From an uncultured Clostridia bacterium (lineage in GTDB: Bacteria; Bacillota; Clostridia; Oscillospirales; CAG-272), in NCBI GenBank assembly GCA_945929845.1, contig CAMEON010000010.1, positions 1 through 50,367 on the forward strand: 50,367 bases of DNA, in the 5' to 3' direction. The notes beneath the pieces were generated by a model. It was not told the DNA's origin, did no database searches, and saw only the letters and a list, made by a program, of their open reading frames with translations. Below, piece by piece: positions 8,122 to 10,971 of the stretch. A program made the position numbers and the translations under genes. The stretch's first letter is position 1. Every line of letters begins with the position of its first letter.

Positions 8122-10764
8122 TTATCGACCCTTCATGGCCGCCTCGTAGTTTTCCCTGTCCTGGGTGCCCAGGGCATTCCGGAACAGGACGGTGCCGCTC
8201 TCGTCCACATCGAAGGTGTACTCCACCGAGCCATGCCAGCCGTCCGACAAGGATTCCGGCTCATACCGGCGGAACAGGCCGTCGTCGGTGGGGAAGTACC
8301 CCTCGCCTGTCCCGCAGAACGCTGTCAACTGCCAGACATTGCTGGTCTTCTCGCTGACCGGGCGGGAGAAGCGGACGATCCCCACACCGGGGGCGAACCA
8401 GTACTCCATATGCCCACCCCGGTAGGCCAGGCCGCCGGTAAGGCCGGTCAGCTCCAGGCTGATATGGCGGCAATCCGTAAAGTGGCCAGCGGGGACAGTG
8501 ACGGACTGATCCTCCAGTACCTGTAGCATCAGGTGTGTATCCCAGTGACCAAAGTACTTCACATTCCTGTCCTCCTCGTACCCGGGCACCCACTGGTCAG
8601 ACCAGATACACCCACCGGTCGCAACACTCAGAATGTCATATAGGAAGTTGTACAGTACCTTGTAGCCTTCCTCCCCGAGAGCCCCCGAGTTCTTCCACTC
8701 AAAGCTGTAATCCCGCCGCTCCGCCAGGCTGACCCTCCCGTCCTGCCTGTTGACTGCACACAACTCGAAGAAGTTCCAGCGTCCCACCTGCGTGCAGGCA
8801 GGGGTAAAGTCCGGGTCGGTGCCAAGGATCCGATTCATGACCTGGGTGGCAATGGCGGTGTGCCGCTTCTGCCGCTGGGTGACAGCCAGAACGGCGGCAC
8901 GGGACAGGGCATCCGATACATCCGCCAGCCTCTCCTCCTCGTCGCTGACATGGTAGCAGTATTCGCACCGGGTCTTGAGCATCTGACCCTCCCAGGAATG
9001 CTGGTCATAGCCCTTCAGATGAGTGAAGGCCGGATGAGACACCACCGAACGCCCTCCTTCTGAAGCGGTAACGGTATACCGATTCTCATATCCCAGCACC
9101 TGTCCCGGCATCTCGGTGACGCAGGTGAACGCCCACTCGTTCCCGGTGGCCAGCGGGAACAGTCCTTCCCCACCACGGACGGTGTAGTCAGTCAACTGCC
9201 ACTCACACTGTGTCCCATAGAGATTGACAATCTGTCGGACGATCCCGACACCCGGGCAGAAGGCGGTCTCGGTAAAGTGCTTCACTTCCCCGTCCGCAGT
9301 GCCTCTTTCCTCTACCCGGTATACCGTGCAGTTTCCGAACATCCCGGTCGGTGTACTGACGCTGACGCTGTCCTCCAGACAGGTCAGGGTGACACAGCCA
9401 TCGGTGGATACCCGGCTCTGTCCGGGGCGCAGGGTGGCATCCAATATCAGCCCGTCACACTGGGACGCACTCCAAACAAGGGAATGATTGAAGCGGCATG
9501 CTAAGCCGCCCCGGCCGTATCCGGGCTGTTCCCAAAAGTACAGTCCCTGCCCCAGCTGGCAGTACACCTCACCCTCGACGCATCGATTGCTTCTCTTGTC
9601 GGCCAGGAACGGGTTCTCATCGCAGGATGCTTCCAATGCCTTCCTGCGCTCCTCCACATCCAACGCCGCCAGGGCTGTGGCGTAGTACACATCCGAAGGG
9701 GTCAACAGGTCTGTCACACGGCGGAGTGCGGCAAAGCCTTCCTCCGTCTTCCTCTCGTCCAGACACGCAACTGCGTACCAGAACCACACATAACCCAGGG
9801 GTTTGACCAACCGATGCTCTTCCAGATACGGCATCTGTACCGTCCTCATGAAGTCCAGCTTCTCCTGCCCGTTTTTCTGATCCTGCTCTTCAGCCATGAC
9901 CATCTGCATGGCCTCCTCATTGTGGCTTGCCTCGGCGGCGGCCTTGATGCGGGCCAGCATATTCTGATTCTTCTCCCCGGGCAGCCACCAGTACCCATGC
10001 AGGAGCACATCGGCCAGGGCATGTTGCTTATCCTGGGATTCATCCAGGGCCTCCACCTGGGCAAGCACGACCCGGTAATCGGCCTCAAAGCCAGTCTTAT
10101 CCCGCTTCAGCCGCCAGAGCTTCAGCTCCTCTACCTGCCGCATGACACGCTTCACCAGGGCTTCCTTTTCGTCATATTGCTCTTCCATCACACCGTATTC
10201 CTTTCTTAACTGTTTTCGCCCCTCAGACAGCCGCCACTTCACCGTCCCCTCCGGAAGGGACAGTGTCCGGGCGATCTCTGCCACCGACAATCCGTCGAAG
10301 TAGTGAAGCCGGACGGTTTCCCGAATCTTCTCGCTCAGGGCCTCCACCGCCTCGTGCAACTTGCCGTCCCGCTCCTGCTCGCCCAACTGGGCCAGGTCAT
10401 ACAGCTTGGCCAGCCCGCTCTCGTCAGAGCCCGTGGCCGCCGTATTCTCCAGAAGGTCAAGGCTGATGTCCGGCACCGCCGCATGGTAGTGCGCCACCAG
10501 GTTCCGGGCGCAGTTTTTGGCGATGGAACAGACCCAGGCACCGAACCGATCCCGCTCCCGCAGGCTGTCCAGCTTCATCCAAGCCGTCACAAAGGCATCC
10601 TGGGCGGCGTCCTCTGCGGAGAACTGGTTGCCCGTCACCCGGAAGGCGGTCCCCTTCACTGCCTTCTCGTGCCGGAGCACCAACGCCTCGTAGGCATCGC
10701 CGTCTCCCAGCAGTGTCCTTTCCACCAGGATATCATCCTCTGCATCCATGTACTTTTTCAGCAT
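8122..10764 (-). CDS. ECF-type sigma-70 factor fused to a very large C-terminal extension
   Basis: N-terminus (MLKKYMDAEDDILVERTLLGDGDAYEALVLRHEKAVKGTAFRVTGNQFSAEDAAQDAFVTAWMKLDSLRERDRFGAWVCSIAKN) is sigma region 2; LHYFDGLSVAEIARTLSLPEGTVKWRLSEGRKQL is region 4; ~650 further residues in the same ORF. Confidence 0.9.
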   Translation of the reverse strand: MLKKYMDAEDDILVERTLLGDGDAYEALVLRHEKAVKGTAFRVTGNQFSAEDAAQDAFVTAWMKLDSLRERDRFGAWVCSIAKNCARNLVAHYHAAVPDISLDLLENTAATGSDESGLAKLYDLAQLGEQERDGKLHEAVEALSEKIRETVRLHYFDGLSVAEIARTLSLPEGTVKWRLSEGRKQLRKEYGVMEEQYDEKEALVKRVMRQVEELKLWRLKRDKTGFEADYRVVLAQVEALDESQDKQHALADVLLHGYWWLPGEKNQNMLARIKAAAEASHNEEAMQMVMAEEQDQKNGQEKLDFMRTVQMPYLEEHRLVKPLGYVWFWYAVACLDERKTEEGFAALRRVTDLLTPSDVYYATALAALDVEERRKALEASCDENPFLADKRSNRCVEGEVYCQLGQGLYFWEQPGYGRGGLACRFNHSLVWSASQCDGLILDATLRPGQSRVSTDGCVTLTCLEDSVSVSTPTGMFGNCTVYRVEERGTADGEVKHFTETAFCPGVGIVRQIVNLYGTQCEWQLTDYTVRGGEGLFPLATGNEWAFTCVTEMPGQVLGYENRYTVTASEGGRSVVSHPAFTHLKGYDQHSWEGQMLKTRCEYCYHVSDEEERLADVSDALSRAAVLAVTQRQKRHTAIATQVMNRILGTDPDFTPACTQVGRWNFFELCAVNRQDGRVSLAERRDYSFEWKNSGALGEEGYKVLYNFLYDILSVATGGCIWSDQWVPGYEEDRNVKYFGHWDTHLMLQVLEDQSVTVPAGHFTDCRHISLELTGLTGGLAYRGGHMEYWFAPGVGIVRFSRPVSEKTSNVWQLTAFCGTGEGYFPTDDGLFRRYEPESLSDGWHGSVEYTFDVDESGTVLFRNALGTQDRENYEAAMKGR

Positions 10765-10971
10765 GTACCTTCTGTCTCCTTTCCTGCCGGTACCGTTCAT
10801 CTCTGTCGGTGCCGGCTGCCATCGCCATTGCGATTCTCTTTTGGGGTTCACTTATAAGACACTTCTTTCAGGAAAAAGGTTGGGTGATGAAAAAATAATA
10901 TTTGTAAAGAAACAGGGAGCCTCTCCCACCCGGGGAAAGGCTCCCTCTGTACAAAGCGGCAGAGACCCAGG

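Follow-up and report, generated by a model that had tools for sequence, protein, structure and literature searches.

A family of ECF sigma factors from uncultured Clostridia with a large cytosolic extension, a putative self-promoter and a predicted internal translation start

An ECF sigma factor of 880 aa is encoded on the reverse strand, at 10764–8122, of the window (the whole 50,367-nucleotide stretch of DNA analysed). The ORF is intact, with its ATG at 10764 and its stop codon at 8122–8124, and the ribosome-binding site AAAGGAGA lies at 10782–10775; the first-pass annotation of this DNA had the ORF, strand and coordinates right. We propose, with a probability of about 60%, that the gene specifies an orphan, self-activating ECF sigma factor with the anti-sigma/sensor function built in, together with a free extension translated from the same mRNA. 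Neither the proposed self-promoter nor the predicted internal start had been noticed in the first-pass annotation; with them, a single fusion protein gives way to a probable pair of products. The features, all on the reverse strand, are as follows.

8122–10764, reverse strand: ECF sigma factor with a ~690-aa cytosolic C-terminal extension, 880 aa (ORF reading, Pfam, full-length homologues)
10852–10884, reverse strand: ECF-type promoter CCCAACCTTTT-N12-TGTCTTATAA, proposed self-promoter (family conservation upstream; unique in own genome)
10775–10782, reverse strand: Shine-Dalgarno sequence AAAGGAGA of the full-length protein (sequence reading)
10498–10683, reverse strand: sigma region 2, residues 28–89 (Pfam PF04542, sigma70_r2, above cut-off)
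10207–10362, reverse strand: sigma region 4, residues 135–186 (Pfam PF08281, sigma70_r4_2, above cut-off)
10186–10206, reverse strand: predicted internal start of translation, conserved in the family, AGAAAGGAA-TACGGTGTG-ATG, Met193 (sequence conservation, synonymous null)
9595–10158, reverse strand: alpha-solenoid/TPR-like region, residues 203–390 (AlphaFold; consensus TPR and TPR_2 profile matches)
9121–9603, reverse strand: DUF3108-like module 1, residues 388–548 (alignment conservation, structural relatives by sequence, HHalign, fold confidence)
8257–9162, reverse strand: DUF3108-like module 2, residues 535–836, with a helical insertion at 591–648 (Pfam, fold confidence, HHalign)
8158–8322, reverse strand: truncated start of a third module, residues 815–869 (HHalign, 97%)

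A sigma factor core with a duplicated module

Residues 1–190 were identified by Pfam as a normal ECF sigma factor, with regions 2 and 4 where the first-pass annotation had placed them. The hallmark of ECF (group 4) sigma70 proteins, sigma2 and sigma4 without sigma1.1 or sigma3, is present, and NCBIfam model TIGR02937 was matched at 77.5 bits (cut-off 42.9). The SigW and RpoE types were the nearest named families, but the scores lay far under their equivalog cut-offs.

The helical, TPR-like stretch read earlier from the sequence was recovered both by TPR profiles and in an AlphaFold model built with 20 homologues (mean pLDDT 85; helical stretch mostly >90). Low confidence was restricted to the sigma2–sigma4 linker (93–133), the sigma4–extension linker (189–201) and one loop. 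As both linkers fell below pLDDT 50, no contact between the sigma domains and the extension is predicted with confidence. The beta-rich modules modelled alone reached a mean pLDDT of 91. Foldseek searches with the full model returned only sigma factors at E ≤ 0.001; with the C-terminal half nothing passed 0.001, and since all matches, which included START/Bet v 1-like helix-grip proteins, were weaker than this, no ligand was deduced from the fold. The window protein has no hydrophobic or transmembrane segment (maximum 19-aa Kyte-Doolittle mean 1.2), in line with the earlier reading, and neither a transmembrane segment nor a signal peptide was found in any full-length member of the family (maximum 19-aa hydropathy 0.7–1.5).

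Residues 388–548 and 655–836 aligned to each other in an HHalign profile comparison at 99.4% probability (E = 5e-21). Residues 815–869 in turn matched the start of module 2 at 97%; the array therefore consists of two modules and a truncated third. The two modules are a true duplication, as the first-pass annotation had claimed for its ‘PGVGIVR’ domain, to which the third start is now added. Module 1 has the conserved pattern TPxGxFxxC...GVGIV...GGxGLxPLxxGNxW, and the Cys of TPxGxFxxC is conserved in each module (C479 in 40/40 members, C765 in 37/40). PF21347 (DUF3108_like) was matched by 16 of 20 members at E ≤ 0.01 (best 7.2e-10), the window protein itself scoring 23.0 bits against a curated cut-off of 27. 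The only solved relatives of the module half by sequence were PDB entries 4fvs (putative lipoprotein) and 3fzx (putative exported protein). Free-standing relatives from other Clostridia (L078–L087) carry a single module copy and are lipoproteins with lipoboxes or secreted proteins, the latter with a copper-amine-oxidase-N-like part (assigned by reading the sequence). The earlier remark that these domains look like those of envelope proteins is thus well founded.

Distribution of the family and its upstream region

Full-length homologues were present in 37 of 295 sampled genomes of the order (8 families) and in 9 of 390 other genomes of the class (4 further families); none was found in 398 other genomes of the phylum sample. 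They range from 850 to 1150 aa, clustering near 850–890 and 1040–1060 aa. Members of ~1050 aa (L006, L008, L009 and L011) have an extra C-terminal domain of ~200 aa, TPR-like by eye, that is not in the window protein. Where the homologue records carry a name, they are Oscillospiraceae/Clostridia MAGs, including one from sheep colon. A tree built on the sigma part placed 28 of 32 family rows in a single supported set (96/99). Four divergent members, alike in architecture (L019, L042, L043 and L044; 875–887 aa), lie outside this clade, reflecting either a second fusion or fast divergence.

The first-pass annotation had named an assembly fusion as one finding that would overturn its reading. Beyond the fragmented state of the genome assembly (104 contigs, 93% complete), nothing was found to suggest that two genes had been joined by an assembly or annotation error. 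Uninterrupted full-length homologues are spread over 12 families and at least 45 genomes, with promoter and junction conserved, and we consider an artefact of this kind extremely improbable; an assembly fusion was rejected on the strength of full-length homologues in dozens of genomes. One homologue (L034:4260–6992) is broken by a frame break near residue 293, away from the sigma/extension junction, which is probably a sequencing error or a pseudogene.

The absence of an adjacent anti-sigma gene noted earlier held across 21 loci, in which neither an anti-sigma gene nor a conserved neighbour was found and only generic transporters and enzymes recurred. No full-length separate gene for the extension turned up in the class sample. 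Neither a phage nor a viral relative was found, and the best plasmid matches covered little beyond the sigma part, so a link to mobile elements was rejected.

Two other kinds of ECF fusion were seen during the survey. One separate family (L140–L169; G027, G026, G001 and others) has cytosolic extensions of ~350–450 aa (total ~530–640 aa) with, by eye, a winged-helix/HTH-like part after sigma4; genomes of the same bacterial family hold as many as 8 copies of it, and the window's own genome none at the search threshold. A third type (L039:1141–2457, forward strand, and similar ORFs of ~430–450 aa) has a tail faintly like a DUF3108-like module, with GAAAGGAGAAAATCAAATG at its junction too.

A shared element, CCCAACCTTTT-N12-TGTCTTATAA, lies in the upstream regions of the family and has an ECF-like AAC...GTC arrangement. 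A promoter score of at least 15/21 was reached by 34 of 40 real upstream regions as compared with 8 of 400 dinucleotide shuffles, and by 23 of 27 as compared with 6 of 270 mononucleotide shuffles in an independent set of later sequences less than 85% identical to the first. When the own genome (93% complete) was scanned with three patterns of differing looseness, the site before the window gene was the only full match, with one additional match at 3 mismatches and no convincing second site that would point to a wider regulon; the consensus was derived from the window gene, and a unique site could also mean that true targets have weaker sites. In 58 relative genomes, all matches with at most 2 mismatches preceded family genes, and matches with 3 mismatches looked like background. 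This conserved ECF-type promoter stands before nearly all members of the family and has no second full match in the own genome, from which we infer that the window gene is autoregulated.

The promoter might instead be read by another ECF sigma factor, placing the window gene downstream in a cascade. The −35 part CCCAACCTTTT has a generic ECF look and is found before another ECF type (L046) too, as a cascade would allow. The −10 part TGTCTTATAA, however, goes with the window-gene family, L046 having CGACGTAAAG in its place; moreover, only one further ECF-like gene was found in the own genome with the window protein as query, and the site is unique there. We regard a cascade as improbable and favour autoregulation.

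Just after the −10 element of L006, L053–L057, L059, L061 and L062 lies the perfect palindrome AAGCGCTT, which resembles a catabolite-responsive (cre) site and is absent from the window gene.

A predicted second start at the sigma4/extension junction

At the junction (window 10206–10186) nearly every member reads AGAAAGGAN, followed after 8–9 bases by ATG. A start codon (ATG, GTG or TTG) occupied column 193 in 33 of 34 non-redundant members, and 30 of 34 had a Shine-Dalgarno core at −18 to −6. The latter count was compared with a synonymous null that keeps the amino acids and redraws codons from each gene's own usage, leaving phylogenetic dependence uncontrolled, and exceeded all 1000 draws (mean 16.1, sd 2.7, maximum 24). 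The independent set behaved in the same way, with start codons in 26 of 27 members and Shine-Dalgarno cores in 20 of 27 (null 10.6, sd 2.2, maximum 18 in 1000). The junction Lys codon was AAG in 27 of 31 members against a background of 59% (p = 6e-4). Relative to its own synonymous null the junction mRNA was less structured (z +0.72, as compared with −0.46 at other in-frame ATGs), and the 12 bases after the internal start were 57% A as against 26%, in the first set and the independent set alike. A canonical Shine-Dalgarno sequence or start is missing in a few members: L058 has AGAAAAGAA, and L075 lacks a start codon.

The Shine-Dalgarno sequence sits in the codons of a conserved LRKE motif. 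This overlap, and the conservation of the LRKEx-M protein motif itself, would suit a gene that makes only the full-length sigma-extension protein, its junction signals being a relic or a site of ribosome pausing for separate folding. In the same genomes, the junction Shine-Dalgarno sequence of the separate ECF-fusion family with shorter extensions was at chance level (5 of 12, expected 4.2), which can be cited on the same side; it indicates that an internal start is not a general rule of ECF fusions. A relic, however, would be expected to decay among members whose identity is as low as 22–40%, and the excess over the synonymous null, start-codon conservation, low structure and A-rich follow-on sequence are hallmarks of initiation rather than of pausing alone. 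A single product is thus possible but the less favoured outcome; more probably, fusion and free extension are both made from the gene. As the extension was not found as a separate full-length gene, the internal start would be its sole source.

At their sigma stop codon, several ordinary ECF genes of these genomes (L002, L021 and L023) run into the following gene, with AAAGGAGG...ATG in the overlap, and the family junction looks like such a junction minus that stop codon. Most likely, the family would have originated by loss of the stop codon of a sigma gene, with in-frame fusion of that gene to a second one whose translation was coupled to its own. In the present-day protein, the extension may restrain the sigma domains in cis or be needed for their activity. 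Binding of a cytosolic ligand or partner by the DUF3108-like modules or the solenoid would end the restraint, and the active holoenzyme would transcribe its own gene. Free extension made from the same mRNA would then dilute, dimerize with or inhibit the fusion as feedback. The proposal in the first-pass annotation of an extension standing in for the anti-sigma/sensor is consistent with the promoter, the cytosolic architecture and the orphan setting of the gene. Whether one ORF would thereby amount to a complete sigma/anti-sigma operon, in which an internal ribosome-binding site gives fusion and free sensor from a self-activated transcript with built-in control of stoichiometry, is about an even call.

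The extension could also act as a positive co-factor recruited by a protein partner, and not as an inhibitor. The TPR-like solenoid lies directly after sigma4, and in ECF42 a TPR extension is essential for activity (PMC8999054). Here, however, two ligand-domain-like modules that ECF42 lacks come after the solenoid, and no conserved partner gene comparable to the YCII protein of ECF42 was found nearby. This role is plausible enough to keep in view, but we rate it below built-in anti-sigma/sensor function.

Comparison with known ECF groups and internal-start genes

Regulatory extensions are attributed to at least 26 ECF groups, most of them unstudied (PMC8999054). The groups with C-terminal extensions listed in the review literature include some that act by a change of conformation (ECF41, ECF238), some that act by interaction with a protein (ECF42, ECF57) and some that depend on proteolysis (ECF48, 52, 53, 243) (PMC8999054). 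The earlier statement that such extensions are usually small needs amending, as lengths up to ~400 aa have been described; at ~690 aa, the present extension is nevertheless larger than any described there (PMC8999054).

The window-gene family lacks the tested feature of each of ECF41, ECF42, ECF238 and ECF48/52/53. Like ECF42 (e.g. Sven_0747), it has an ECF core extended at the C-terminus by a cytosolic TPR-type part, without an anti-sigma gene. ECF42, however, has a ~200-aa TPR extension and a conserved YCII-domain neighbour (PMC8999054), whereas the window protein has ~690 aa with two DUF3108-like modules after the TPR-like part, and no recurrent neighbour; membership was rejected. ECF41/ECF56 (SigJ, SigG1) similarly bear a cytosolic ligand-domain-like extension on an ECF core instead of an anti-sigma factor, but theirs is one small SnoaL-like domain without a TPR-like region. 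Pfam found SnoaL in none of 20 members, and this assignment was also discarded. ECF238 (CorE-like), which has a Cys-rich C-terminal domain and a CXC motif between sigma2 and sigma4, was excluded: the corresponding linker here (residues 90–134) has no CXC, and the Cys residues of the extension are not clustered, only C479 and C765 being strongly conserved. ECF48/52/53 (SCO4117) and ECF243 (IutY) also join a large regulator in frame to an ECF core, but their extensions are membrane-anchored anti-sigma-like parts; ECF48/52/53 membership was rejected, as no full-length member has transmembrane helices.

ECF262, ECF264 and ECF288 are Firmicute ECFs listed with extensions, ECF262 being represented by a Ruminococcus albus protein (PMC8999054). 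They can be likened to the window-gene family by description alone, as Firmicute ECFs with uncharacterized extensions, and a literature search on ECF262 and Ruminococcaceae fusions found nothing relevant. ECF262, known here by its description, may be related, and this is one reason for regarding the family as a variant among extension-bearing ECFs and not as a new kind. No description was found of the family's gene layout, a sigma factor fused to a sensor-like part, with a conserved, predicted internal start.

The modules share the repeat V..PAG.F..C ... Y..P.VG.VR with DUF3108_like (PF21347) exported proteins, 4fvs and 3fzx. Proteins of the 4fvs/3fzx type are exported or lipoproteins, whereas the window-gene modules stand in tandem inside a cytosolic sigma factor; a literature search for DUF3108 together with sigma factors found nothing relevant.

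Internal starts that yield a C-terminal short form occur in several bacterial genes, among them those for CheA-S, ClpB and IF2, although to our knowledge in no sigma factor. The window gene resembles these in having one ORF with an internal Shine-Dalgarno sequence, a start codon and a second in-frame product, which here, unlike in CheA-S, ClpB and IF2, is predicted from sequence. The family is widespread in uncultured gut Clostridia, and its tandem modules are elsewhere known from exported lipoproteins; it makes it possible to test directly how a sigma/regulator operon may have become one gene while keeping its second product.
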